DNA of 35,033 bases from NCBI GenBank assembly GCA_024401215.1, contig JAKSLL010000033.1:1-35033 (forward strand), given 5' to 3'. Numbering within the stretch: position 1 is the stretch's first letter; each line of letters opens with the position of its first letter. Under the pieces are notes generated by a model. It ran no database searches and had not been told where the DNA came from. It saw nothing but the letters and a program-made list of their open reading frames with translations. The stretch is from Bacteroidaceae bacterium (GTDB taxonomy: Bacteria; Bacteroidota; Bacteroidia; Bacteroidales; Bacteroidaceae). A program made the translations under genes and the position numbers. Below, one piece after another: positions 10,402 to 31,428 of this stretch.

Positions 10402-10621
10402 CAAGTATCTGGTCATAATTGTTTTTATAATCAAGAATGAAGAGAATAAGAGAATGCCTTCCGGATGACTTCTCTTAATTCCAATCGTAACGATTTAATT
10501 CTGAATTTTAAAGAACAGTTTGTACAAACTGAAAGAAGAAATCTCTAATTTGGCTACGCCGAGCTCTTCGAGGTTCTCTTCATTCTTGATAAATAAAAAA
10601 TAAATTTGATTACTTTACTTA
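10402..10621 (-). mobile_element. MITE-like element, copy A
   Basis: A 220-base element with imperfect terminal inverted repeats of about 30 bases: AAGTATCTGGTCATAATTG on the left and, read from the other strand, TAAGTAAAGTAATCAAATTT on the right. Inside are TTCTTGATAAAT-type segments and the palindromic AATCGTTACGATT. It is the reverse complement of the copies at 16407-16627 and 17626-17866. No coding potential. No clear target-site duplication was found. Confidence 0.65.
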
Positions 10622-14595: not shown

Positions 14596-14704
14596 CAGTC
14601 AAAGACCGCTTCTTCCTCCACACCTCGGCAATTCACACTGTTTGATTACTCTCTGTTAGGAGTGGGCAGCAAAGCAAATTTTGACATTCACATCAAGAAA
14701 TAGT

Positions 14705-16330
14705 ATGCAGAAGAAATTTTCATACCCCGTAGATATTGACCAGTTTGAGCAAATCATCAGACAGGGGAAAGTATATGTTGACAAGACGGACTTGATGTTC
14801 AATCTTGTGAGCAATTACACGTATGTCTTTCTTGCCCGGCCTCGCAGGTTTGGCAAGTCCCTTCTGTGCAACACCCTGCATGCATATTTTGACGGAAAGA
14901 AAGAGCTGTTTGAGGGGTTGAAGATTGCGGAACTGGAGAAGCAGTGGGACAAGCACCCTGTGCTTCATTTCATCATGAGCGGATTGAAAAACTGCACTAT
15001 AGCTGAGGCAAGGAGCACGTTGGAGAATTTCATTCATACCTACGAAAAGGAATACGGCAGAGATGAGATGGAGAATACTCCTGGTGCGAGATTCCGCGGA
15101 TTGATTCATCGCGCCTATGAGAAAACAGGCAAGAAGGTGGTCATCATACTCGACGAATATGACTCACCCATCACACGACTTCTGCATGAGCATAAGGATC
15201 TGGAGGAGATGCGAAGTCTGCTGAGAAATTTCTACCAGGTACTTAAGGACGAAGGTGAATACATCCGCTTTGTGTTCATCACAGGCATCACAAAGTTCTC
15301 ACAGCTCAGCATCTTCTCGGAACTCAACAATCTGAATAACATCTCGATGATTGATGACTACTCCGGTCTTTGCGGCATCACACAGGAAGAGCTCGACACA
15401 GTGCTCCGCCCTTGCGTGGAGGAGTTTGCTCAGAACATCGGCGTAAGCACAGAAGAAGCGTACAACTTGCTGAAGAAGCAATATGACGGTTATCATTTCA
15501 GCAAAAACAGTAAGGACGTGTATGCACCATTCAGTTTGCTGAAATGTTTGAATGACAGAGACCTCAACAACTATTGGTTTGAGGCAGGCACATCACTGTC
15601 TCTGCTGAAGTATCTGGAGCATTATCCACTTCGCAACGCCTTTGAATACGATGGCATAGAAGTTGATGTTGACGAGTTCAACATCCCATGTGAGGATGCA
15701 GAGACACCAATGCCACTTCTCTATCAGAGTGGTTACCTGAGCATTGACACCTACAGCAAGCGGTTCAACACCTACACATTGCGCATCCCGAACCGCGAGG
15801 TAAAGACCGGGCTCATCAAATGCCTTATGCCGATTTTGATGCATAGCACAACCAATGAGGGCAACACCACAATCACCAATATGGCGAAGGCGATAAGAAG
15901 AGGCGACCTCTCACAGGCGCTCGTCTGCCTTCGCTCTTACATCGCAGGAATACCATACGACATCATAACCAAGGAGGAATGGGACAAGAAGGAGGGTCGC
16001 GAGAATTTCTACAAACTCCTCTTATACCTTGTATTCTCACTGCTCAACTCAAAGGTGGATGTTGAGGTGAAGAGCATTCTCGGCCGTGCAGATGTTGTCG
16101 TGCAGACAGAGGATGATGTCTTTGTCATTGAACTGAAGGTTGACGACACCGTAAAGGCAGCTCTCGCACAGATAGACGAGAAGGATTACGCCATCCAGTG
16201 GAGTGCCGACGGACGAAAAGTGACAAAATGCGGTGTCAGCATCACCTCCGACAAGCGCAACATCACCCATTGGCGCATCACAGACGCTGACGGCAATGTC
16301 GTCGAAGACAAGAACTTCAAAGAGCAATAA
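14705..16330 (+). CDS. AAA-ATPase-like / PD-(D/E)XK nuclease-family protein
   Basis: A 541-residue protein of the PF09820 AAA-ATPase-like plus PF08011 PD-(D/E)XK type, a family greatly expanded in Bacteroidales. The start FSYPVDIDQFEQIIRQGKVYVDKT is typical. The Walker A-like RRFGKS is at residues 47-52 and the Walker B-like IILDEYD has Asp150-Glu151. The C-terminal nuclease-like motif shows Asp463 in GRADVVV and Glu476-Leu-Lys478 in IELKVD. Function is unknown; a nucleic-acid role is inferred from the folds. The ATG at 14705 is preferred over an upstream TTG at 14681 because family members start this way. A paralogue lies at 29857-31428. Confidence 0.9.
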   Translation: MQKKFSYPVDIDQFEQIIRQGKVYVDKTDLMFNLVSNYTYVFLARPRRFGKSLLCNTLHAYFDGKKELFEGLKIAELEKQWDKHPVLHFIMSGLKNCTIAEARSTLENFIHTYEKEYGRDEMENTPGARFRGLIHRAYEKTGKKVVIILDEYDSPITRLLHEHKDLEEMRSLLRNFYQVLKDEGEYIRFVFITGITKFSQLSIFSELNNLNNISMIDDYSGLCGITQEELDTVLRPCVEEFAQNIGVSTEEAYNLLKKQYDGYHFSKNSKDVYAPFSLLKCLNDRDLNNYWFEAGTSLSLLKYLEHYPLRNAFEYDGIEVDVDEFNIPCEDAETPMPLLYQSGYLSIDTYSKRFNTYTLRIPNREVKTGLIKCLMPILMHSTTNEGNTTITNMAKAIRRGDLSQALVCLRSYIAGIPYDIITKEEWDKKEGRENFYKLLLYLVFSLLNSKVDVEVKSILGRADVVVQTEDDVFVIELKVDDTVKAALAQIDEKDYAIQWSADGRKVTKCGVSITSDKRNITHWRITDADGNVVEDKNFKEQ

Positions 16331-16376: not shown

Positions 16377-16408
16377 TACCACTATTTGTTATAGAATAAA
16401 TAGTGGTA
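16377..16408 (+). terminator. Hairpin downstream of the 14705 gene
   Basis: TACCACTATTT (16377-16387) pairs with AAATAGTGGTA (16398-16408), an 11-bp perfect stem with a 10-base loop. There is no T-run after it, and its right arm overlaps the left end of MITE-like copy B. It could be a weak terminator or a chance effect of the insertion site. Confidence 0.4.
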
Positions 16409-16627
16409 AGTAAGTAATCAAAATTATTTTTATATTTATCAAGAATTTAGAGAAAATAGAGATTTCATCTTTCAGTTTGTAGCAAACTGTTCTTTTTGAT
16501 TCAGAATTAAATCGTTACGATTGGAATTAAGAGAAGCCATCCGGATGGCATTTCTCTCATTCTCTTCATTGGCTTCGCCGAGGCTAAAGGTTCTTGATTA
16601 TAAAAAATAATTTTGATCAGACACTTA
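16407..16627 (+). mobile_element. MITE-like element, copy B
   Basis: The left end is TAAGTAAGTAATCAAAATTA and the right end, from the other strand, is TAAGTGTCTGATCAAAATTA. The core is nearly identical to copy C (17626-17866) and is the reverse complement of copy A. It holds the palindromes AATCGTTACGATT and GCCATCCGGATGGC. Copies B and C lie in the same direction on either side of the ParE-type toxin-antitoxin cassette. Confidence 0.7.
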
Positions 16628-16686
16628 CTTCTATATTTACAATAGTTCATTTTCGTCTGAATGATGATAACTGCTAATATCATATT

Positions 16687-17511: not shown

Positions 17512-17607
17512 TTGAGGAAATGCTTTGCCATCTGGAAAGTTCACGTAATTTTGCAAAGTATTCCTTATCAGAGCTTAAAGGTATTCTTGCACATGATGGC
17601 AATGTTT
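17512..17607 (+). pseudogene. Truncated antitoxin remnant with promoter
   Basis: The stretch copies the start region of the antitoxin at 21219: TTTG at 17524-17527, TAATTTTG at 17546-17553, then an abrupt jump to GCAAAGTATTCCTTATCAG, which in the intact locus lies 191 bases further on. Both sides of the jump carry GCAA (21193-21196 and 21384-21387 in the intact copy), so the loss looks like a short-repeat deletion. The remaining codons cannot give a working antitoxin. The match fades near 17607. Confidence 0.75.
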
Positions 17608-17625
17608 GAAACACAGAGGAAATAA

Positions 17626-17866
17626 TAAGTAAGTAATCAAAATTATTTTTATATTTATCAAGAACCGTCAGCTCGGCGTAGCCAATTTAGAGAATTTAGA
17701 GATTTTTTCTTTCAGTTTGTCAGCAGACTATTCTTACTGATTCAGAATCTAATCGTTACGATTGGAATTAAGAGAAGGCATCCAGATGGCATTCTCTTAT
17801 TCTCTTCATTGGCTTCGCCGAGGCTAAAGGTTCTTGATTATAAAAATAATTTTGTACAGATACTTA
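17626..17866 (+). mobile_element. MITE-like element, copy C
   Basis: The left end is TAAGTAAGTAATCAAAATTA and the right end, from the other strand, is GTAAGTATCTGTACAAAATT. The core matches copy B and also has inner arms CTCGGCGTAGCCAAT and ATTGGCTTCGCCGAG that pair with each other. It starts right after the antitoxin remnant and ends just before the promoter at 17878. Confidence 0.7.
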
Positions 17867-17877
17867 CAAGCTAAAAA

Positions 17878-17909
17878 TTTGCTCATACCAAATAAAAGCA
17901 TTACTTTTG
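17878..17909 (+). promoter_or_regulatory. Promoter in front of the structured RNA region
   Basis: TTTG at 17878-17881, a 20-base spacer and TACTTTTG at 17902-17909, a full consensus match. No protein gene follows for over 470 bases, so the transcript from here would be the leader or non-coding RNA described at 17911-18319. The 26 bases around the TTTG (AAAATTTGCTCATACC and on) are repeated at 16349-16373, but there the -7 element is missing. Confidence 0.65.
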
Positions 17910-17910
17910 T

Positions 17911-18319
17911 CACGCATAGGGCGAGGAATTGTCCTGTGTGATTCTGTTTATTAGAAAAGCAGAAAGACTGCGACTTATCGCGATTGTATAACATAAAACA
18001 TTTATATACAAATTAGAAAGTTTGAGATAAAGAACATATTATAAAAATAGTAGCATCAGACTATCATTGTGGTCGTCAAAGAAATGAAGCGTAGGAAACT
18101 TATATTTCTCTCTGATAACATACCACAACAATGATGGTTGGCTTGTTCGTATAGGTGAATGCCTATGGAAGGACGAAGCCAGTCACGGATATGAAGATAG
18201 AAGGATGCCATACACTCAGTTATTGAGTGTGGGCATTATTCTTATATCCGTGAGAGGTCAGAGAAATTCCTACGCTTCAACCTCATGACGACCATAAGAA
18301 GAGAGTTCACACTCTTTTT
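17911..18319 (+). ncRNA. Candidate structured non-coding RNA upstream of hsdM
   Basis: About 400 bases with no coding frame but dense complementarity. The main domain is closed by TGGTCGTCA (18070-18078) pairing with TGACGACCA (18286-18294), a symmetric 6x6 internal loop, then TGAAGCGTAGGAA (18085-18097) with TTCCTACGCTTCA (18267-18279), continuing into ATTTCTCT/AGAGAAA. Two arms branch inside: GGCTT..ATAGG/CCTAT..AAGCC (18140-18180) and CACGGATAT..ACACTCA/TGAGTGT..ATATCCGTG (18184-18252). Upstream small hairpins lie at 17911-17940, 17959-17971 and 17984-18011. A consensus promoter lies just before and a terminator just after. The outer arms could also be read as inverted repeats of a MITE, but the inner branches favour RNA. 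No known RNA family was recognised. Confidence 0.55.
18299..18319 (+). terminator. Intrinsic terminator after the structured RNA
   Basis: AAGAGAGT pairs with ACTCTTTT (one G-U pair) around the loop TCAC, followed by a T-run. It comes only 5 bases after the closing stem of the structured RNA and before the hsdM promoter, so it would separate the RNA from the restriction genes. Confidence 0.65.
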
Positions 18320-18325
18320 GTGTCC

Positions 18326-18382: not shown

Positions 18383-19942
18383 ATGAGCAAAGAACAAGAA
18401 CGTGCTGAGTTGCATCGCACCATCTGGCAGATTGCCAACGACCTGCGAGGCAGCGTTGATGGCTGGGACTTCAAGAACTATGTGTTGGGATTCCTTTTCT
18501 ACCGTTTCATTTCTGAGGATTTGACAGCTCACCTTAACAACGAAGAAGCTAAGGCAGGAAATGACGGTTTTGACTATGCCAAGGATGTGGCAGACGAAGA
18601 TATTGACGAAGATATTCGCAAACAAACTATCGATGAAAAAGGCTACTTCATCTATCCTTCCGAACTCTTTCATAATGTAGCTGCCAAAGCAGATAGCAAT
18701 GAAGACCTGAATGTCACTCTTTCCACAATATTCAAAAATATCGAAGGTTCTGCCATAGGCACGGAGAGCGAACAGGACATGAAGGGATTGTTCAGCGACA
18801 TTGATGTGAACAGCCCAAAGCTTGGCGCAACAACAGGCAAGCGCAACGAACTTCTCACAAAGATAATGATCAGCATCGAGCAGATGAACCTTGGCGGAGA
18901 CCTTCGCGATGCACAGATTGACGCCTTTGGCGATGCCTACGAGTTTCTTATGACAATGTATGCCAGCAATGCAGGCAAGAGTGGTGGAGAGTTCTTCACG
19001 CCTCAGGAGGTGGCAGAGCTGCTGGCTCGCATAGCTTGTGATGGAAAGAACCGTATTGCAAAGGTTTACGACCCAGCATGTGGTTCGGGGTCTCTGCTGC
19101 TCAAGTTCGCAAAAGTTTTAGGAGCAGAAAAGTCAAAGGCTGTATCTTTCTTTGGTCAGGAGCTGAACATCACCACATACAACCTCTGCCGCATCAACAT
19201 GTTCTTGCACCATGTGCCTTTCAACCAGTTTGACATTCAGCTGGGTGACACGCTCACAGAGCCAAAGCATCTTGCCGAAGAGCCTTTCGATGCCATTGTC
19301 AGCAATCCGCCCTACTCCACTCGATGGGCAGGCGATGACAATCCTTTGCTTATCAGCGACGACCGTTTCTCTCCTGCAGGTGTGCTTGCTCCAAAGACAA
19401 AGGCAGACCTCGCTTTCACCATGCATATTCTGAGCCATCTGGCAACCACAGGAACAGCAGCAATAGTCGAGTTCCCTGGTGTGTTGTATCGTGGCGGTGC
19501 AGAGCAGAAGATTCGTCAGTATCTTATTGAGAACAACTATGTTGACACTGTCATCCAGCTGCCAAGCAACCTCTTCTTTGGAGTGGGCATTGCCACCTGC
19601 ATCATTGTGCTGAAGAAGAGCAAGGCAGACAACTCGGTATTGTTTATTGATGCCAGTGAGGACTTTGTGAAAAACGGCAATAAGAACAAGCTGACGCAAG
19701 AGAATCTCGACACAATCTTTGGCGAATATCATAATCGTGAGGATGTGCGGTATAAAGCAAAGCTTGTCAGCAATCCAGATATTCTTGCTAACGACTGCAA
19801 CCTTTCTGTCTCTTCATACGTAGAGCAAGAAGACAAGAGAGAAAAGATTGACATTGAGGCGTTGAATGCAGAACTTGCAGAGATTGTAAAAGAGGGAGAT
19901 GAGTTGAGAAAGCGAGTGGATGAAATAATTGCTAATCTTTAA
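18383..19942 (+). CDS. hsdM: Type I restriction-modification DNA methyltransferase subunit
   Basis: A 519-residue modification subunit. It methylates adenine in the target site using S-adenosylmethionine, in complex with HsdS, and is also needed for cutting with HsdR. The N-terminal helical domain (WQIANDLRGSVDGWDFKNYVLGFLFYRFISE, given here as a region rather than a motif) covers about residues 12-42. Motif I DPACGSG begins at Asp230 and the catalytic NPPY is at 308-311. It belongs to the gamma-class N6-adenine type. The ATG at 18383 starts MSKEQERAELHRT, typical of the family; a GTG at 18320 would start inside the regulatory dyad and is not favoured. hsdS follows after 11 bases. Confidence 0.97.
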   Translation: MSKEQERAELHRTIWQIANDLRGSVDGWDFKNYVLGFLFYRFISEDLTAHLNNEEAKAGNDGFDYAKDVADEDIDEDIRKQTIDEKGYFIYPSELFHNVAAKADSNEDLNVTLSTIFKNIEGSAIGTESEQDMKGLFSDIDVNSPKLGATTGKRNELLTKIMISIEQMNLGGDLRDAQIDAFGDAYEFLMTMYASNAGKSGGEFFTPQEVAELLARIACDGKNRIAKVYDPACGSGSLLLKFAKVLGAEKSKAVSFFGQELNITTYNLCRINMFLHHVPFNQFDIQLGDTLTEPKHLAEEPFDAIVSNPPYSTRWAGDDNPLLISDDRFSPAGVLAPKTKADLAFTMHILSHLATTGTAAIVEFPGVLYRGGAEQKIRQYLIENNYVDTVIQLPSNLFFGVGIATCIIVLKKSKADNSVLFIDASEDFVKNGNKNKLTQENLDTIFGEYHNREDVRYKAKLVSNPDILANDCNLSVSSYVEQEDKREKIDIEALNAELAEIVKEGDELRKRVDEIIANL

Positions 19943-19953
19943 TACAAGAGTTT

Positions 19954-21111
19954 ATGGAGAAGATTAGTGAAATGATTGATAGGATGTGTCCTGAAGGTGT
20001 GGAAAGGGTACGTTTAGGTGGTACTGCAGAAATTGGTACAGGCTCAGGAAATAGACAAGACGCAGTTGATTGTGGCTCTTATCCATTTTTTGTTAGATCA
20101 AAAGAAGTATTAAGTAGCAACACATACGAATTTGATGAAGAAGCCATCTTAATACCAGGTGAAGGTGGAATTGGTGAAATATTTCATTATTTCAAAGGTA
20201 AATACGCCTTACACCAAAGGACATATAGAATACATCTTAAATCAAAGTATATAATCACTAAGTATTTGTTTTATTATTTGTCGGCCAATTTCAAGCCATA
20301 TATTCTACGAAAAGCCGTAGCCTCAACTGCAACATCAATAAGGAAACCAATGATAGAGGATTTTGAGACTCCCCTTCCGCCTCTCCCAATCCAGCAAGAG
20401 ATAGTTCGTATATTAGACACCTTCACTCAATTGCAATCTAATCTTGAAGCAGAATTGGCAGCAAGACAAAAGCAGTATGAGTATTATAGAGATAACTTAT
20501 TTTGTGAAGATGTAGAAACATTACAAAAAAGGACTGATTGTGATATAAAAACAATAGGAGAATTAGGAACTATTATAAGAGGAAAACGATTTGTTAGAAC
20601 TGACATTGTTGAAGAAGGTGTGCCATGTATTCATTATGGCGACATGTACACATTCTATGGATTAAAAGCAGAAAAGGCAAATACGCACATAACAAAAGAA
20701 AAGGCAAAATCAATGAGATTTGCGAAAAAAAATGATGTTGTGATTGTAGGTGCGGGCGAAAATGATTGGGATATAGGCGTGGGACTTGTTTGGTTAGGTG
20801 AAGAAGATGCTGCTATACATGATGCTTGTTATATTTTGAACCACGAACAGAATCCTATGTATATTTCTCATTTTCTACGTTCTACGGTTTATCATTTACA
20901 ACTTCGCAAATATGTTTCGTCTGGAAAGATAAGCTCATTTTCCGCAAAAGATTTAGGGAGAATATTAATTCCAATTCCCTCCCTCCAACATCAACAAGAA
21001 ATCGTCTCCATCCTCGACACCTTTGAATCCCTTATTACCAACCTCAAACAAGAAATTGAAGCGAGGAAGAAGCAGTACGAATACTATCGTGAGCAGTTGC
21101 TGACATTCTGA
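19954..21111 (+). CDS. hsdS: Type I restriction-modification specificity subunit
   Basis: A 385-residue protein that chooses the DNA target for methylation and cutting. It has the classic two-part layout: target-recognition domain 1 (about 1-145), a conserved helical spacer (QQEIVRILDTFTQLQSN to YEYYRDNLF, about 148-188), domain 2 (about 190-345) and a second conserved helix ([17 protein letters not shown] to YEYYREQLLTF, 348-385). The two helices are repeats of each other. The recognition domains are much more AT-rich than the hsdM and hsdR genes, as expected for exchanged segments. The last 39 codons and about 40 following bases have a near-identical orphan copy at 16687. The target sequence cannot be predicted. 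Confidence 0.95.
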   Translation: MEKISEMIDRMCPEGVERVRLGGTAEIGTGSGNRQDAVDCGSYPFFVRSKEVLSSNTYEFDEEAILIPGEGGIGEIFHYFKGKYALHQRTYRIHLKSKYIITKYLFYYLSANFKPYILRKAVASTATSIRKPMIEDFETPLPPLPIQQEIVRILDTFTQLQSNLEAELAARQKQYEYYRDNLFCEDVETLQKRTDCDIKTIGELGTIIRGKRFVRTDIVEEGVPCIHYGDMYTFYGLKAEKANTHITKEKAKSMRFAKKNDVVIVGAGENDWDIGVGLVWLGEEDAAIHDACYILNHEQNPMYISHFLRSTVYHLQLRKYVSSGKISSFSAKDLGRILIPIPSLQHQQEIVSILDTFESLITNLKQEIEARKKQYEYYREQLLTF

Positions 21112-21162
21112 TAATATACTGCGCTCTTTGACAAACTGAAAACAAAAAAGTTGAGGAAATGT

Positions 21163-21193
21163 TTTGCCATTTGGAAAGTTTGACGTAAGTTTG
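21163..21193 (+). promoter_or_regulatory. Promoter of the antitoxin-PIN toxin pair
   Basis: TTTG at 21163-21166, a 19-base spacer and TAAGTTTG at 21186-21193. This is a full Bacteroidetes consensus match, 25 bases before the antitoxin ATG. It lets the pair, and possibly hsdR behind it, be transcribed apart from hsdM-hsdS. Confidence 0.7.
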
Positions 21194-21218
21194 CAACGAA
21201 TAAGCTTATATATTAAAA

Positions 21219-21494
21219 ATGAAAGCAAAGGAACATATTGTGACTTATAAGTCAATGCCTTCCACTTCCATCATGCGAGGTAGGTTGATAGAGGCTTTAG
21301 AGAATGAAAATGATGATAATTTCATTCAGATGATGTATGTGATGATGGTTCAAATCAAGAATGACTCACAGCCAAAGGAACCAGCAAAGTATTCCTTATC
21401 AGAGCTTAAGGGCATTCTTGCACATGAAGACAGCAATGAATTGTCGTATGATGAAATGCGTATGGCGTACATGAAAGATAAGTATTCGCTATGA
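21219..21494 (+). CDS. Putative antitoxin of a PIN-domain toxin
   Basis: A 91-residue protein, MKAKEHIVTYKSMPSTSIMRG at the start. It is called an antitoxin because it directly precedes a PIN-domain toxin with the stop and start overlapping as ATGA (21491-21494). Residues about 52-91 (PAKYSLSELKGILAHEDSNE, then YDEMRMAYMKDKYSL) look like the helical toxin-binding tail of small antitoxins. The N-terminal half may bind DNA but no fold is recognised with confidence. Its promoter and part of its tail have a broken copy at 17512-17607, showing that this cassette has been duplicated. Confidence 0.75.
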   Translation: MKAKEHIVTYKSMPSTSIMRGRLIEALENENDDNFIQMMYVMMVQIKNDSQPKEPAKYSLSELKGILAHEDSNELSYDEMRMAYMKDKYSL

Positions 21495-21928
21495 AGATAT
21501 TTCTTGACACAAATGTAGTGATGGATTATCTTGCATCACGTGGAGATGTTGAATCCGTAAGCAAGATTTTCAATCAGATAGAAAATGGCGTCCATTCGGC
21601 GTCCATCTCAATAGGTTCTTTCTATACGATAACTTATCTTACTGAGATTTTTCTCAAAAGCAAAGGTCTTGAAAAATCTGAAAGGATAAAGATGCTCCGT
21701 GCCACATTGGAGTCCTTGCTGGTTTATATAAATGTGGCAGGTCACACCAAAGCACAATTATTGAAGGGTGTGAAGGATATAGAATTTCAGGATATAGAAG
21801 ATTCGTATCAGTATCAAGCAGCATTGACTGCCGAATGTGAATGTTTGATTACAAGTAATATAAAGGATTTTAGTGAATTGGAAAATCCATTGATAGATAT
21901 TGTATTACCGAAGGAATTCTGTAATTGA
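21491..21928 (+). CDS. PIN-domain toxin (VapC-like ribonuclease)
   Basis: A 145-residue PIN-domain protein. Acidic residues typical of the metal site are Asp6 in FLDTNVVMDYL, Glu52 in TEIF, Asp104 in IEDSYQYQAA and Asp126 in TSNIKDF. PIN toxins cut RNA (often tRNA or rRNA) when free of the antitoxin. The gene overlaps the antitoxin by 4 bases, a common sign of coupled translation. It lies between hsdS and hsdR and its stop is 39 bases before the favoured hsdR start, so it is embedded in the restriction operon. It may help keep the locus in the genome; this is inference. Confidence 0.88.
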   Translation: MKIFLDTNVVMDYLASRGDVESVSKIFNQIENGVHSASISIGSFYTITYLTEIFLKSKGLEKSERIKMLRATLESLLVYINVAGHTKAQLLKGVKDIEFQDIEDSYQYQAALTAECECLITSNIKDFSELENPLIDIVLPKEFCN

Positions 21929-21967
21929 TTTTTTTTGTTTTCAGTATGTCTCTTGGACGCAGAACAA

Positions 21968-24900
21968 ATGCAAACAATAACAAAACCAAGAGATATGATA
22001 TCTTATTACGACCTTATTTCAGAGAACGACGAGAGTACCGTCGTTTCCTATTTTGAGAAATCTTACACGGCAGGCGAACGTGCCTACATGTCGGAGAAAA
22101 GACTTGAAGACCAGTTTGTTCTGCAGCTGGAGCAACAGCAGTATGAGTATGTTGCCCTCACTTCTGAGGAGGAACTGATAAAGAACCTTCGCAGACAGAT
22201 AGAGAAACTCAACAAGGTCTCTTTCAACGACGGAGAGTGGAAACGATTCTTCACCACCAACATTGCCAAACCAAACGCTGGCATTGTGGAGAAGACACGC
22301 ACAATCCAAGAAGATCCCCGCTTCACATTCACTTTTGACGATGGCAAGATGCAGAACATCATGCTGCTCGACAAAACGCACATTCACGAGAACCATTTGC
22401 AAGTGATGCGTCAATATAAGGCACCCCTCTTATCCCCACAGGGAGGGAGGATTGAAGGTGGGAACAGGTATGATGTGACCATCCTTGTCAATGGATTGCC
22501 ATTGGTGCATGTGGAGCTGAAGCGTCCAGGCGTAGATATTCGTGAGGCATTCAACCAGATAAAGCGCTATAACAGAGATTCATTCTGGGCAGACAAAGGA
22601 CTGTTCGAGTATGTGCAGATATACGTGATAAGCAATGGCACATACACAAAATATTATAGCAACACCACTCGCGACCGGCATCTGAAAGAGGAGGATGAAA
22701 GGCAGAAAAAAGGACAGGTGGTAAGCAACTCGTTTGAGTTTACGTCGTGGTGGACAGACGCCCATAATAAGAAAATCGCCATGCTTGAGGACTTCACCTC
22801 AACATTCTTCGCAAAACACACCATACTGAATATACTGACAAGGTTCTGCGTGTTTACGGTAGATAAGCACCTTATGGTTATGCGCCCTTACCAGATAGCA
22901 GCTACTGAAAGGATATTGAACCGCATAAAGATGGCATACAACCAGAAAAAGTATGGTTCAATAGATGCTGGCGGCTATGTGTGGCACACCACAGGAAGTG
23001 GCAAGACACTGACATCATTTAAAACGTCGCAGTTGGCAAGCAAGCTTCCATATATCGACAAGGTTCTTTTTGTGGTTGATAGAAAAGACCTTGACTATCA
23101 GACAATGAGGGAGTATGACAATTTCCAGAAAGATGCTGCCAACTCAAACACAAGCGTGGCTGTGCTGGAGCGTCAGCTGAATGATCCTACATGCAAGATT
23201 ATAATCACCACCATTCAGAAGCTTTCTATCCTTGTGAGCAGAAAGATGGATTTGAATGTGTATAATCAGCATGTGGTGATGATATTTGACGAGTGCCATC
23301 GTTCTCAGTTTGGCGAGATGCATACAGCCATCATAAAGAAGTTTAAGAAATACTATATCTTTGGTTTTACTGGCACACCTATCTTTGCCGACAATGCCAA
23401 CACGAGCGGCAAGGCGAACTTGAGGACTACCAATCAAGTGTTTGGCGACAAACTCCACACATACACTATCATCAATGCCATCAACGACAAGAATGTGCTT
23501 CCTTTCCGTGTTGAGTATATCAGAACAATGAGGGAGAAGGATGGCGTGGAGGATATGCCAGTGACGGACATCGACCGCGAGAAGATAATGCGCGACCCTA
23601 AGTACATCAGCAATATCGTCACTTACATTATCAGGCATTTCGGTCAGAAGACAAAGCGCAACAGCACGTACCAAGTGAAAGACCAGCGCAAGCAGGGATT
23701 CAACTCTATCTTTGCTACCGCAAGCATAGACTTTGCAAAGCTTTACTACAGGGAGTTCAAACGGCAGATGCAGTATCTGCCAGAGGAAAAACGCCTGAAG
23801 GTAGCTATGATTTACAGCTATGGCGCGAATGACGAGGACCCGCTTGATGGCGAACTGTTTGATGAGAATCCTGAGGACCCTTCAACGCTGTCGCAGACCG
23901 ACAAGGATGCTCTGCAGGAGTGCATTGATGACTACAACAAGGAGTTTGGCCAAAATTTCGACCTCTCGTCAAAAGGATTCCAGAATTTCTATAAGGATAT
24001 GAGCGAGCGCGTGAAAAACAGGGAACTGGATCTGCTCATCGTTGTGAATATGTTCCTCACAGGTTTTGACGCAAAGACTCTCAACACGCTGTGGGTGGAC
24101 AAGAACCTGAAGATGCACGGATTGATTCAGGCATACAGCCGCACCAACCGCATCCTCAACAGCGTGAAGACTTTCGGAAATATCGTTTGTTTCCGCAATC
24201 TTGAGCAGGCAACAAACGATGCGATAGGACTGTTTGGCAATGAGGAAGCAAAGGGCTTGGTGCTTCTCAAGACTTTTGAGGATTATTATTGTGGATATAC
24301 AGATACGGAAGGAAGCTACAAGCCAGGGTATAAGGAGACAGTAGAGAGATTGCTTGAACAGTATCCTTTGGACAGAGAGATTATCGGCGAAGAGGCAAAG
24401 AGGGAGTTTGTGAAGACATACTCCTATGTGATGAGCCTGTTCAATATCCTGTCAACTTTCGATGCTTTTGAAGACAAGCAGATTCTCAGCGAGCAGGACA
24501 GGCAGCACTATGCAAGCGTTTATATTGAGCTGTATCATGAGTTCAAAGGACACAGAGGCGGCGACGCAGAGAATGTGAACGATGACATTGTGTTTGAGAT
24601 GGAGCTTATCAAGCAGGATGAGATAAGCATAGACAGAATCCTTGCCATCATTCAGGAGTATGCAAAGAATCACATGAATGACCTGACTGTCGTTCCAAGC
24701 ATAAGCAAAGCCATTGATGCGAGTCCTGACTTGAGGAACAAGAAGGAACTGATAGAGAAGTTCATTGCAGGCATGACCCCAGACAGCAATGTAGGCGAGT
24801 CATGGGCGGAGTATGTCAAGCAAAAGAAGAATGAGGAGTTGCAGAGGATTATCGAGGAGGAGCGGTTGAAGCCAGAAGAAACGCAACACTTCATGGAGAC

Positions 24901-25654
24901 AGCATTCAGAAACGGCTTCATCTCGATGTCGGGCACAGCGTTCTCACAGATTCTTCCTCCAATGTCCCGATTTGCGAAGGACGGAGCAAGAGAGAAGAAG
25001 CGCAATGACGTGTTTGAGAAGCTAAGCGCCTTCCTTGAAAAGTATAAGAATCTGATTACTGAAGAAGACGACGAAGAGCTGATTGACTTCGCTCCCGAAC
25101 CTCCGACAGCAGAAAAACCAGAAACTGTTCCAACAGACAAAGAACATAAGTTGAAGGGTGAAAAAGAGAGAGCTGTCTCTGTCGATTCAGCAAAGGATGC
25201 TGAAGGAAAAGAGGAAAGCGACACTCAAGAAGGTGTCATGAAGGCTCTCGCCATCCGCCAGCCTTGGGCAACTCTGATAGTGAAAGGAATAAAGGACGTG
25301 GAGTGCAGAGACAAGATGGTGCCGCCATGCAAGCGTTTCCTTGTAGCTGCAAGTGCGACGAAAGAAAAGTGGTCTGATTTGGATTCTTACACAAAAAAAA
25401 TTATCAAGGAATATCAGGCAAAGGGCGTCTTGCCTCCATACAATGAATGGCCTACAAAAGCAATACTCGGATATGTTGATATTGAGTCGTACCAGTATGG
25501 TCCAACGAAGTCTGTCTGGGGCAGGGACAACTATGGTATCAACTATCTGCTGACCAATGCTCATGAGTTTAAAGAACCTATCACAGGAAAGAACAAGGCC
25601 ACCCCTCTTTTCTACAATGTCGAGGGCTTAGACTTAGCTAACATCCAAGACTGA
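21968..25654 (+). CDS. hsdR: Type I restriction subunit with extra C-terminal ASCH domain
   Basis: A 1228-residue ATP-driven translocase and endonuclease subunit. The nuclease domain shows Asp169 in NRYDVTIL and Glu183-Leu-Lys185 in HVELKRPG. The SF2 motor has Walker A TTGSGKT (343-347 GSGKT), the DECH box at 441-444 and FGFTGTP. Helicase motifs near ARTNRIL-type (AYSRTNRIL) follow, then a helical domain. After a charged, low-complexity linker (about 1035-1090) comes an ASCH domain, residues 1091-1228 (MKALAIRQPWATLIVKGIKD, then ECRDK), not part of ordinary HsdR. Starts: ATG 21968 is favoured over the TTG at 21935; ATG 21995 is also possible. An internal ATG (25238) preceded by AAGAAGG could yield free ASCH protein. 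Confidence 0.95.
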   Translation: MQTITKPRDMISYYDLISENDESTVVSYFEKSYTAGERAYMSEKRLEDQFVLQLEQQQYEYVALTSEEELIKNLRRQIEKLNKVSFNDGEWKRFFTTNIAKPNAGIVEKTRTIQEDPRFTFTFDDGKMQNIMLLDKTHIHENHLQVMRQYKAPLLSPQGGRIEGGNRYDVTILVNGLPLVHVELKRPGVDIREAFNQIKRYNRDSFWADKGLFEYVQIYVISNGTYTKYYSNTTRDRHLKEEDERQKKGQVVSNSFEFTSWWTDAHNKKIAMLEDFTSTFFAKHTILNILTRFCVFTVDKHLMVMRPYQIAATERILNRIKMAYNQKKYGSIDAGGYVWHTTGSGKTLTSFKTSQLASKLPYIDKVLFVVDRKDLDYQTMREYDNFQKDAANSNTSVAVLERQLNDPTCKIIITTIQKLSILVSRKMDLNVYNQHVVMIFDECHRSQFGEMHTAIIKKFKKYYIFGFTGTPIFADNANTSGKANLRTTNQVFGDKLHTYTIINAINDKNVLPFRVEYIRTMREKDGVEDMPVTDIDREKIMRDPKYISNIVTYIIRHFGQKTKRNSTYQVKDQRKQGFNSIFATASIDFAKLYYREFKRQMQYLPEEKRLKVAMIYSYGANDEDPLDGELFDENPEDPSTLSQTDKDALQECIDDYNKEFGQNFDLSSKGFQNFYKDMSERVKNRELDLLIVVNMFLTGFDAKTLNTLWVDKNLKMHGLIQAYSRTNRILNSVKTFGNIVCFRNLEQATNDAIGLFGNEEAKGLVLLKTFEDYYCGYTDTEGSYKPGYKETVERLLEQYPLDREIIGEEAKREFVKTYSYVMSLFNILSTFDAFEDKQILSEQDRQHYASVYIELYHEFKGHRGGDAENVNDDIVFEMELIKQDEISIDRILAIIQEYAKNHMNDLTVVPSISKAIDASPDLRNKKELIEKFIAGMTPDSNVGESWAEYVKQKKNEELQRIIEEERLKPEETQHFMETAFRNGFISMSGTAFSQILPPMSRFAKDGAREKKRNDVFEKLSAFLEKYKNLITEEDDEELIDFAPEPPTAEKPETVPTDKEHKLKGEKERAVSVDSAKDAEGKEESDTQEGVMKALAIRQPWATLIVKGIKDVECRDKMVPPCKRFLVAASATKEKWSDLDSYTKKIIKEYQAKGVLPPYNEWPTKAILGYVDIESYQYGPTKSVWGRDNYGINYLLTNAHEFKEPITGKNKATPLFYNVEGLDLANIQD
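22421..22462 (+). repeat. Intergenic-type repeat inside hsdR
   Basis: GCACCCCTCTTATCC, CACAGGGAGGGAGG and ATTGAAGGTGGG follow one another in frame, encoding PLLSPQGGRIEGG. The CACCCC/GGGAGG arms recall the dispersed hairpin at 8024-8052. It lies just before the nuclease motif segment NRYDVTIL, where HsdR proteins usually have a short loop. The reading frame is kept. Confidence 0.45.
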
Positions 25655-28036: not shown

Positions 28037-28849
28037 TTATGAATAATTCTGGTTCAAATTCATTGTTTTTTGTGCCTTATCGGGCTTGTTTTCCTTTTTC
28101 TTCCTCTTTTTCTTGTGACGCTCGCTCATCTCTTCCATGTAGCCCGCTGTAAGGATGCCGGACGGCAAAGCAATGATTGCTATGCCGACAAGAGCAGACA
28201 CCATACTCACAGCTCGTCCCCACGCCGACTGTGGATAAATGTCACCATACCCCACCGTAGTGAGCGTGCATGTTGCCCAATATACCGCATCCCAATAGGT
28301 GTCAAAGAAATGGTTGTCACTGTTACTTTCATACTCTACATTGAACATCACCAAAGCAGTCAGCAAGATGTAGAACACAGCGAAGCATACAACGGTGAAC
28401 AGGACATCAGCCTTCTTGCGGAACACATCGATGACAACCTGAAGAGGCTCATAATATCGGAACAGCCTTCCAATTCTCAGCAGTCTTATTATTCGCCAGG
28501 AACGAAGCAACTTGAATGTTGGAGCAATAAGCATGAATAACGGCAGAATGCTGAACAAGTCGATAATAGCACTCAGGCGCAGAGGATAGAAAACAAAGGC
28601 TTTCCAACGCGGCACGCCCTTCTCCTCCCTGCCATTATAAGAGTAATCGGCAACCATCCACCTGAGCATGTAGTCAAAGATGAAAATGCCTGTCGTCACA
28701 TAATCTATGTACCTAAACAACGAGTATTCTTTGTGAGTTGTAAGAGGCAGAAGACTGATAAGGACAACGACAATCATTGTCCAATCATACCAGGCATGCC
28801 CCTTGTCTCTAATTGAAAAATTTACAATTCTGTTTATTTTCTCTCGCAT
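28037..28849 (-). CDS. Voltage-gated-type potassium channel
   Basis: A 270-residue inner-membrane ion channel of the six-helix Kv-like type. The selectivity filter TVGYGD is at residues 198-203 in a proper pore loop (WATCTLTTVGYGDIYP). An S4-like helix carries regularly spaced arginines (R116, R119, R122, R125, R128, R131), the voltage-sensor pattern. S1-S3 lie about 23-110, S5 about 149-170 and S6 about 212-236. The cytoplasmic tail is very basic (HKKKRKKKENK). No ligand-binding domain follows. It likely conducts K+ and influences membrane potential. It stands alone, with its own candidate promoter at 28895-28927. Confidence 0.94.
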   Translation of the reverse strand: MREKINRIVNFSIRDKGHAWYDWTMIVVVLISLLPLTTHKEYSLFRYIDYVTTGIFIFDYMLRWMVADYSYNGREEKGVPRWKAFVFYPLRLSAIIDLFSILPLFMLIAPTFKLLRSWRIIRLLRIGRLFRYYEPLQVVIDVFRKKADVLFTVVCFAVFYILLTALVMFNVEYESNSDNHFFDTYWDAVYWATCTLTTVGYGDIYPQSAWGRAVSMVSALVGIAIIALPSGILTAGYMEEMSERHKKKRKKKENKPDKAQKTMNLNQNYS

Positions 28850-29856: not shown

Positions 29857-31428
29857 ATGGGCATATATATAAATAGAGGTAATTACGATTTTTCCCAGGC
29901 ACTAAACTCAACATTTGTTGACAAGTCTGGTCTTATCTCGATTATAAACAGAACACTGTTTACAGAGCAACGCCGCAGCTGTGTTACTCGTTCACGTCGC
30001 TTTGGAAAATCCATGGCGGCAAATATGCTTTGTGCCTATTATGACCGTTCTTGCGATTCTCGTTCTCTTTTTGAGAATCTGGAGATTTCTCACGACCCCT
30101 CTTTTGAAAAGTATCTGAATAAGTTTCCTGTAATCAAACTGGACATTACGGACTTTACCATGCGGTATAAAGATGACCCAAGCATCATAGGAAAAATGCA
30201 GGATGCATTAAAAGCTGATGTGAGAGAGGCGTATCCAAATATCGTTCCCGATGATTTCAACGATGATTTCATGGAAATGCTCATCAGAATCAATCAGGCG
30301 ACTGGCGATTCCTTCATCATGGTCATTGACGAATGGGATGCCATGTGCCGCGAATCGAGCGATGCTACGGTTGAGGCATATCTGAACTGGCTTCGCCGTA
30401 TGTTCAAAGGCAGTAACACCATCAGCGTTTTTGCTGGGGTCTATATGACGGGCATTCTGCCTATCAAGAAGTATAGCAAGCAATCTGCACTCAACAACTT
30501 TCTGGAGTATTCCGTAACTTCACCTATGGGTGAGGAGCGTTTTTTCGGCTTCACGCGTGAGGAGGTGAAAACACTCTGCGAAGAGCAAGGAAGAAGCTAC
30601 GATGAGTTTGCAAAATGGTACGATGGCTACAGCATAGGTCGTGAACCTTCGATATTCAATCCAAACTCCGTCATGCTTGCATTGAGAGCCGGTCGTTGTG
30701 GCAGTTTCTGGCAAGCCACAGCATCATACGAATTGGTTGCCACCTATATTGACATGAACTACGAAGGCTTGAAGGACGACATTATCCACATGCTCTCGGG
30801 TGGAAGATGTGAGGTGAACACCACAAATTTCAGCAACGACATGCACGATGTCAAGAGCAAGAACGAGGTCCTCACTGTTCTTATTCATCTCGGCTACCTT
30901 GCTTACGACTTCGAGGAGGAAGAATGCTACATACCAAACTACGAAGTGCGTCGTGAGATGGAGAATGCCGTGAAGAGTAGCGGTTGGCAAATCGCGTATG
31001 CTATCAGCAATTCGAAGAAACTTCTCAAAGAAACCCTTGCAGGCAATTCGGATTATGTTGCGGAAGTCATAGACAAGGCTCATGATGAGACTACAAGCAT
31101 ACTCTCCTACAACAACGAAAATTCACTTGCCTGTGTTCTGACCATAGCATATATCTATGCTCAAAACGACTACATTGTACATCGTGAACTCGCTACAGGC
31201 AAGGGCTATGCCGATCTCGTTCTTATTCCACGCAGGAATGTTGACAAGCCTGCTATTGTTCTCGAACTAAAATACAACAAGGAAGTAGATGCCGCAATTG
31301 CTCAAATAAAGCGTAAGAAATACGTGAGCAAGATAGAACAGTACACTGGTGACATTCTTCTGGTCGGAATCAACTACGACAAGAAAGAGAAGCTGCACAC
31401 CTGCACTATTGAAACTGTTACCAAATAA
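29857..31428 (+). CDS. AAA-ATPase-like / PD-(D/E)XK nuclease-family protein, second copy
   Basis: A 523-residue member of the same family as the gene at 14705. RRFGKS is at residues 47-52, as in the first copy. The Walker B-like MVIDEWD has Asp158-Glu159. The C-terminal nuclease-like motif shows Asp453 in GYADLVL and Glu470-Leu-Lys472 in LELKYN. The two proteins are distant relatives, sharing motifs rather than long identical runs, so this is not a recent duplication. The gene begins 166 bases after the DUF3791 pseudogene and ends 35 bases before the LytTR gene. Role unknown. Confidence 0.9.
   Translation: MGIYINRGNYDFSQALNSTFVDKSGLISIINRTLFTEQRRSCVTRSRRFGKSMAANMLCAYYDRSCDSRSLFENLEISHDPSFEKYLNKFPVIKLDITDFTMRYKDDPSIIGKMQDALKADVREAYPNIVPDDFNDDFMEMLIRINQATGDSFIMVIDEWDAMCRESSDATVEAYLNWLRRMFKGSNTISVFAGVYMTGILPIKKYSKQSALNNFLEYSVTSPMGEERFFGFTREEVKTLCEEQGRSYDEFAKWYDGYSIGREPSIFNPNSVMLALRAGRCGSFWQATASYELVATYIDMNYEGLKDDIIHMLSGGRCEVNTTNFSNDMHDVKSKNEVLTVLIHLGYLAYDFEEEECYIPNYEVRREMENAVKSSGWQIAYAISNSKKLLKETLAGNSDYVAEVIDKAHDETTSILSYNNENSLACVLTIAYIYAQNDYIVHRELATGKGYADLVLIPRRNVDKPAIVLELKYNKEVDAAIAQIKRKKYVSKIEQYTGDILLVGINYDKKEKLHTCTIETVTK

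Follow-up and report, generated by a model that had tools for sequence, protein, structure and literature searches.

The locus studied here raises the question of what occupies the region directly in front of a type I restriction operon, where no reading frame of at least 80 aa overlaps positions 17512–18319 of the window (the whole 35,033-nt stretch of Bacteroidaceae DNA that was analysed). An earlier note had described this region as a frameless structured RNA placed before a restriction locus, and both the lack of a frame and the position are borne out. Folded alone, the segment 17900–18330 reaches −153.7 kcal/mol, compared with −95.7 ± 5.4 kcal/mol in 100 dinucleotide shuffles, none of which was as good (z −10.8). 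Compensating base changes in homologues, which had been set beforehand as the check, were found; the observation of a structured RNA stands overall, the finding being larger than first stated, and the accompanying interpretation is partly supported, its suggestions of a role in guiding the RM proteins or sensing phage having gained no support.

The RNA unit itself spans window positions 18052–18320 (about 270 nt, just upstream of the start codon) and is a member of an RNA family that is absent from Rfam. In agreement with the earlier failure to recognise a known family, the window gave zero Rfam matches at gathering score and, at a relaxed E ≤ 5, six sub-threshold matches only, to unrelated families such as microRNAs; with Rfam 15 at curated thresholds, 20 further loci gave no match, and the sole match in 15 more was an abiF RNA outside the element. 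This abiF RNA (RF03085, L080:4676-4712) lies in the same locus as one member and suggests a defence island. Literature searches within open-licence PMC articles brought up no such RNA. The element could be among the thousands of unnamed candidate RNAs of gut bacteria reported from human-microbiome genomics (PMC8040213), the main text of which contains none of the words 'restriction', 'methyltransferase', 'defense' or 'hsd'. Judged by its compensatory changes, the promoter in front and the same-strand gene behind, the element is probably a cis-acting structured leader RNA.

Table 1. Window coordinates of the leader, its helices and the genes that follow
Feature	Position	Strand	Basis and remarks
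Bacteroidetes-type promoter	17878-17909	+	TTTG 17878-17881, 20-nt spacer, TACTTTTG 17902-17909; read from sequence
5′ hairpin	17913-17940	+	terminator scan match and fold; just after expected transcription start
5′ motif GCATC..CTATC	18053-18065	+	partner in P0 and P8, possibly of T2
P0	18061-18069 / 18129-18137	+	excludes P1
P1, outer closing stem	18071-18078 / 18286-18293	+	fold and covariation
P2	18086-18097 / 18267-18278	+	89% paired, 7/12 pairs change on both sides (close set)
P3	18109-18115 / 18258-18264	+	88% paired, 5/7 pairs change on both sides (close set)
P4, inner arm 1	18139-18181	+	fold; little covariation
P5, inner arm 2	18184-18252	+	base 18184-18192/18244-18252, middle 18205-18209/18232-18236, tip 18212-18218/18224-18230
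P8	5′ motif 18053-18065 / GATAG..GATGC 18196-18208 (arm 2, 5′ strand)	+	window scan
AT1	18225-18234 (arm 2, 3′ strand) / 18305-18314 (T1 region)	+	excludes P5 tip and T1
P6	18254-18258 / 18280-18284	+	judged spatially incompatible with P2/P3
T1, terminator-like hairpin and T run	18299-18320	+	laxer hairpin test
T2, long hairpin directly before hsdM start codon	18323-18382	+	fold −14.7 kcal/mol
hsdM, type I methylase	18383-19942	+	ATG at 18383; N6_Mtase 2.5e-110, HsdM_N 1.6e-18
hsdS	19954-21111	+	Pfam
ORF	21219-21494	+	operon in 19954-25654
PIN protein	21491-21928	+	Pfam
hsdR	21935-25654	+	Pfam

Homologues in Bacteroidales

BLASTN against 101 genomes (the window's own and relatives) yielded four clear matches beyond self, in three genomes. 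A search pattern built from two conserved stretches, which fixes P0, retrieved 58 stretches from a collection of genome contigs, that is, 43 full members, one short one (L043) and 14 chance matches. All 43 come from Bacteroidales groups (the carrier of L084, for example, is Parabacteroides distasonis An863), except one labelled 'uncultured bacterium'; together with the window, they make up the close set of 44 members. A covariance model of the 3′ half, R1, which leaves the 5′ half unconstrained, matched 13 of 45 genomes at the level of the genus (E ≤ 0.001); at E ≤ 0.01, it matched 12 of 393 from the order and 10 of 121 from one other family in it. Across the phylum, it matched a single one of 395 genomes, the window's own. 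All these tallies include known members and false matches. The R1 searches added 36 new loci which, judged by eye, were divided into 22 distant members, 6 representatives of a possible second class and 8 that were dropped as coding, truncated or unconvincing (L104, L105, L111, L113, L120, L121, L126 and L134). Distant blastn searches of plasmid and phage collections gave no match, and among viral contigs none of the 4 pattern matches had the 3′ half of the RNA.

The possible second class is shorter and comes from another Bacteroidales family (L101, L103, L107, L129, L130, L135). By eye, these loci keep AT1-like and TTCTTAT/ATAAGAA pairings; one genome (G331) has three copies, two of which precede proteins that are apparently secreted, and L130 precedes a type III methylase.

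Two alignments were used below: 42 close sequences, with L050 and L088 left out for an insertion in arm 1, and a mixed set of 36 that combines 14 of the 44 close members with all 22 distant ones. The insertion, hairpin-like and about 70 bases long, sits at the same point of the arm in both loci (L050:6254-6591 and L088:6553-6888).

Rod, arms and competing helices

The closing stem of the earlier description is present as P1 and P2 and is extended by a third segment, P3; both inner arms, P4 and P5, are present as well (Table 1). In the close set, 99% of the P1 cells are paired and 2 of the 8 pairs change on both sides, with exchanges between C-G, G-C and A-U (z −16 in the mixed set). The base of P5 is 87% paired, with all nine pairs changing on both sides, and its middle and tip are 92% paired, with changes on both sides in 5 of 12 pairs (both in the close set); the covariation of this arm reaches z −21 in the mixed set and −22.7 in the close set. 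For state A as a whole (rod, arm 2 and T1), 89.5% of the cells are paired across the 42 close sequences and 30 of 55 pairs have changed on both sides, the covariation being 0.350 against 0.144 after shuffling, a score that none of 500 shuffles reached; sliding the partners by 1–3 columns lowers the pairing to 36–44%.

Evidence of a second set of helices comes from a scan of 12-nt windows, in which the energy of pairing with the own partner is set against that with partners taken from other sequences; its permutations ignore relatedness, for which control pairs from the same alignment partly correct, and the helix list was fixed after seeing the data, P8 being picked from the scan itself. Among the 1326 window pairs of the mixed set, the strongest signals were those of P5, P1, P2, AT1, P3, P0 and P8, and the 1045 pairs away from the named helices never fell below z −4.9. 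In the close set, P5, P3, P2, P1 and AT1 beat all 1545 controls, and T1 was matched by 3 of them.

Three of the alternative helices tie the flanks of the rod to other strands. The competing pairing ATCATTGTGGT of the earlier note is present as P0 and is supported in the distant set (z −6.0 for the 22 distant members alone); in the mixed set of 36 it shows z −8.2, with 0 of 1045 control pairs as low, 88% of cells paired and 3 of 9 pairs changing on both sides, and in the close set, where P0 is fixed by the search pattern, 28 of 1545 controls are as low. P8 reaches z −7.5 in the mixed set, below all 1045 controls, and is moderately supported in the close set (z −4.7; 6 of 1545). In the close set, the 3′ half of which could not be biased by the search pattern, AT1 is 96.9% paired, with 6 of 10 pairs changing on both sides and z −9.4, a value that none of 1545 controls matches. 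Support for P6 in the close set is again moderate: z −5.4 (2 of 1545 controls as low), 93.8% pairing and G-C in place of A-U in 15 of 42 sequences. Two further candidates were demoted after the close-set scan, namely P7 (the 5′ strand of P3 with upstream sequence; 68% paired in the close set and 54% in the mixed set, 10 of 1545 close-set controls as low) and AT2 (188 of 1545 close-set controls as low). Because of the circularity of the searches, AT1, P5 and P1–P3 are judged here by the close set and P0 and P8 by the distant set; the distant-set support for AT1, P6 and AT2 is biased because R1 contained those pairs. By the scan results, AT1 is the alternative helix with the firmest support; P0 and P8 depend on the distant members, and the case for P7 and AT2 is weak.

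When these helices are combined into a state B (P8, P7, AT1, AT2 and P6), the 42 close sequences are 89.4% paired, with 16 of 41 pairs changed on both sides and covariation of 0.241 compared with 0.167 after shuffling (43–51% paired upon sliding); the corresponding values for the 36 mixed sequences, 82.3% and 26 of 41, are favoured by R1, which contains three of the helices. P0 and P7 together are 72.7% paired in the mixed set (covariation 0.201, shuffled 0.138), and two of the five measures fail against shuffles (both-side changes, 64/500; further pair types, 479/500). As a side observation, the lowest unnamed pairs of the close-set scan join arm 1 (18152-18163) to the 3′ strand of P2 (18268-18283), with z −6.8 and −6.5, the former outscoring P6, P8, P7 and AT2; arm 1 is in part similar to the 5′ strand of P2, and this is perhaps one more competing helix.

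The two sets draw on the same strands: AT1 uses one strand of the P5 tip and the T1 strands, P8 the other strand of arm 2, and P0 a strand of P1. Strands that have two conserved, mutually exclusive partners are as in a bistable leader RNA, and, with compensatory change on both sides of this exclusion, the switch between two shapes raised in the earlier note is likely. As a purely nested fold, state B is energetically poor and was rejected in that form: its mean of −69.0 kcal/mol compares with −91.3 for the rod, which was lower in all 36 sequences. With the nested form some 22 kcal/mol weaker, the second state would need help or a pseudoknotted version. As isolated duplexes, P8 plus AT1 average −27.2 kcal/mol, against −22.6 for the P5 tip plus T1, and are the lower of the two in 29 of 36 sequences; with the rod kept, P8 and AT1 amount to a double pseudoknot, whose loop costs these duplex energies leave out.

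These energies also bear on a reading without any switch, in which the RNA adopts a single compact pseudoknotted fold (made up of the rod, the P5 base and the tertiary-like helices P8 and AT1) and acts as a binding platform or in a ribozyme-like manner, P0, P6 and P7 being merely folding intermediates. The rod, the P5 base, P8 and AT1 indeed share no strands, the P8 and AT1 duplexes are the slightly stronger ones, and transient helices are known in folding pathways. The well-paired and covarying middle and tip of P5, however, exclude both AT1 and P8, and T1 is followed by a T run in 64 of 66 members; both points argue against this reading, which we regard as unlikely, though far from negligible. 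Since the middle and tip of P5 are conserved and yet exclude AT1 and P8, both helix sets are kept.

Could the pairing act in DNA instead, the block being a MITE or a recombination site? It is common to unrelated operons and chromosomal sites, and a real MITE-like repeat adjoins the RNA. The genome of the window, however, holds one real copy of the block, apart from a 17-base chance match, so the MITE reading that the earlier note had kept as an alternative is not supported; compensatory changes maintain two alternative folds, the promoter motif reads into the block, and G-U cells on the + strand outnumber A-C cells about 2:1 (140:65, 161:76 and 137:61). We consider a DNA element highly improbable. 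The adjoining MITE-like element, with 28-nt inverted arms, occupies window positions 17626-17866, directly upstream of the promoter; it has 76 matches in the same genome, many of them partial or arm-to-arm, and two further copies lie in the window at 10436-10621 and 16407-16628.

Ends of the leader, genes behind it and portability

The leader had been credited with its own promoter, and a motif that fits the Bacteroidetes promoter consensus is indeed read in the sequence and enriched across members. Of the 64 members whose upstream sequence is long enough, 43 have TAnnTTTG 40–230 nt upstream, compared with 8.2 ± 2.6 (maximum 14) in 40 shuffled sets; with TTG added at the right distance, the count is 18 of 64 against 1.25 in shuffled sequence. 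At the position of the 5′ hairpin, some other members have, by eye, hairpins of different sequence. A hairpin with a GAGAAA-type loop was seen just after the promoter motif in the distant members L116, L117, L118, L123, L127 and L131 (by eye).

The intrinsic terminator is the weakest of the earlier claims. A hairpin of at least 5 bp followed by at least 4 T is present in 64 of 66 members, compared with 30–35 of 66 in each of five shuffles, but a stricter terminator scan of the window was silent on T1, its only listed hairpin being that at 17913-17940; T1 is thus a putative terminator. Beyond T1, many RM-linked members have a long hairpin before the ATG, with GATAG in its 5′ strand and often a GATGC-like loop, the counterpart of T2 in the window; by eye, several distant members that precede non-RM or unclassified genes lack it. 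The T2 segment is complementary to the 5′ motif (mean −11.4, shuffled −4.4, in 55 members). Covariation between the two was looked for and not seen (z −2.2 in the 55 members, 0.2 in 14 distant and −0.3 in 41 close ones), because both are too conserved, and this pairing is retained as conserved complementarity only.

With a promoter motif and a terminator-like end of its own, and as a block common to unrelated operons, the element might instead be a free-standing small RNA that runs from promoter to T1, acts in trans and merely neighbours RM genes. Against this reading, a same-strand ATG frame begins 39–238 nt past the ACC that ends P1 in 42 of the 43 close members other than the window (counted on the same strand only; the slice of the 43rd locus ends early, and the frame in L086 is interrupted early), and 92 nt past it in the window; moreover, several homology blocks run past T1 through T2 to about the start codon, and T2 is complementary to the 5′ motif. 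We hold a trans-acting RNA to be improbable and keep to the leader reading.

The earlier tie to type I systems does not hold: the close members also precede RM genes of types II, IIG, III and others. In raw counts, 38 of the 44 close members have an RM-type first gene, with 24 methylases (HsdM, 3; EcoRI-type, 3; MmeI-type IIG, 2; type III or N6/N4, 6; Eco57I-/MmeI-related, 10) and 14 restriction-type helicases (DrmD-like SNF2, 5; SNF2, mostly with a PLD domain, 8; ResIII, 1); in four helicase-led loci, a methylase follows further down within the sequence slice (L036, L072, L081 and L084). Representatives were assigned with Pfam or PADLOC and the remaining genes through BLAST matches to these representatives, except that L068 and L086 were assigned by eye from short or interrupted frames and L072 by a 60-aa match. 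Two more close members precede other defence-like genes (a UvrD/GajB-like gene in L058; in L087, an IetA-like ATPase as the fourth gene), three do not (L041, with an HsdR_N-type gene second, L051 and L069), and L079 is unreadable. Among the 22 distant members, 12 stand before RM genes (EcoRI-type, 6; D12, 2; C5, 2; N6/N4, 1; and one SNF2-helicase fragment, L119, at 72% over 68 aa) and 10 before other or unclassified frames, among them those of a sulfatase, an acyltransferase, a radical SAM enzyme and a YbjQ protein. No reverse transcriptase family was detected at E ≤ 0.001 in the 20 window ORFs or the Pfam-scanned downstream genes; the element thus lacks the adjacent reverse transcriptase gene that is the criterion for a retron or DRT non-coding RNA. 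Two other gene types recur nearby: a gene for an ion channel of the voltage-gated type stands immediately after the leader in L041 (2749-3501) and another beyond the RM operon in the window (28037-28849), and two AAA-ATPase_like/PDDEXK_9 genes flank the region (window 14681-16330 and 29857-31428).

First genes that are mostly DNA methyltransferases or RM-type helicases would fit an ordinary riboswitch for a metabolite tied to methylation, such as S-adenosylmethionine. However, neither the window nor any of 35 loci matched a SAM or other riboswitch family at gathering score, and some first genes (the sulfatase, the acyltransferase, YbjQ) have no known tie to SAM; we consider a riboswitch of this kind quite improbable.

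Near-identical leaders precede unrelated RM operons, in line with the earlier suggestion that the element can travel as a unit. The leaders of L060 and L068 are 93–94% identical, and the genes behind them are type I and probably type III, respectively. Conversely, L060 and L089 have HsdM proteins that are 89% identical and leaders that agree at 54% (gaps counted) or 64% over aligned bases; these leaders can be aligned by blastn (80.7% over 1911 nt including the gene), and faster drift is an alternative to exchange for this pair. Of the 13 pairs compared, the 8 with unrelated first genes share homology that begins 14–144 nt upstream of the core, has its far end at +262 to +356 and extends at most a few bases into the gene (L048/L078, −87..+356; L070/L081, −144..+339; L069/L082, −54..+262), so that the 3′ limit of the block falls somewhere from the end of T1 to about the start codon. 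By eye, the genes upstream are not the same from one locus to another. Given these shared blocks that end near the start codon and the differing genes, the leader seems to recombine as a cassette that is portable between operons.

A possible switch and its place among known systems

The reading that we favour, and consider reasonably probable, is that the element is the 5′ leader of an RM mRNA, about 270 nt long, with two alternative folds, and gates the operon behind it. We infer a strand-exchange switch of the following kind. The nascent RNA would first make P0; once the 3′ half is made, P1–P2–P3 would displace P0 and the tip of arm 2 would close, leaving T1 free to form and thereby ending transcription or keeping the gene silent. 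In the alternative state, both rod flanks would move over to arm 2: its 5′ strand would be taken by the 5′ motif (P8) and its 3′ strand by the T1 region (AT1), an exchange that would remove T1 and let RNA polymerase enter the operon. T2, located at the start codon and complementary in its 5′ strand and loop to the 5′ motif, may be a second gate, at the level of translation. Because P8 and the T2 pairing share the 5′ motif, T2 might remain closed in the very state in which T1 no longer blocks the operon. Candidate cues for the balance are a metabolite, a protein, the speed of the polymerase or a phage event.

A broader proposal, tentative and in our estimate well short of probable, is that a single class of RNA sensor controls RM operons and related defence operons of almost all types in Bacteroidales, as a portable strand-exchange switch, a 'defence leader', driven by a ligand or an event. 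Control of restriction is mostly attributed to system-specific DNA-binding proteins or to phase variation; a single RNA family in front of type I, II, IIG and III and helicase-led systems would represent a shared layer of defence control. If so, a new RM cassette could be acquired behind a ready-made control element and released only on a common cue, for example, phage attack or entry into a new host, and the trigger of the leader could reveal what the carrier bacteria read as a threat.

Among known systems, control of RM genes by C (controller) proteins solves the same problem, the timing and level of RM expression, but is based on protein and DNA and is specific to each system, whereas the element is an RNA common to several system types. 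The AbiF RNA (RF03085) is likewise a structured RNA beside a phage-defence gene, although the element gave no match to it, either in the window or in the 35 loci scanned. In architecture, the element resembles transcription attenuators and the expression platforms of riboswitches, which also combine a long 5′ leader, helices that share strands, and a hairpin with a T run before the coding region; unlike these, the element has no family match, involves several strand swaps and precedes RM genes of many unrelated types. As far as can be tested on sequence, it appears to be in kind a leader-RNA switch, new as a family, in its complexity and in being shared by different restriction systems.
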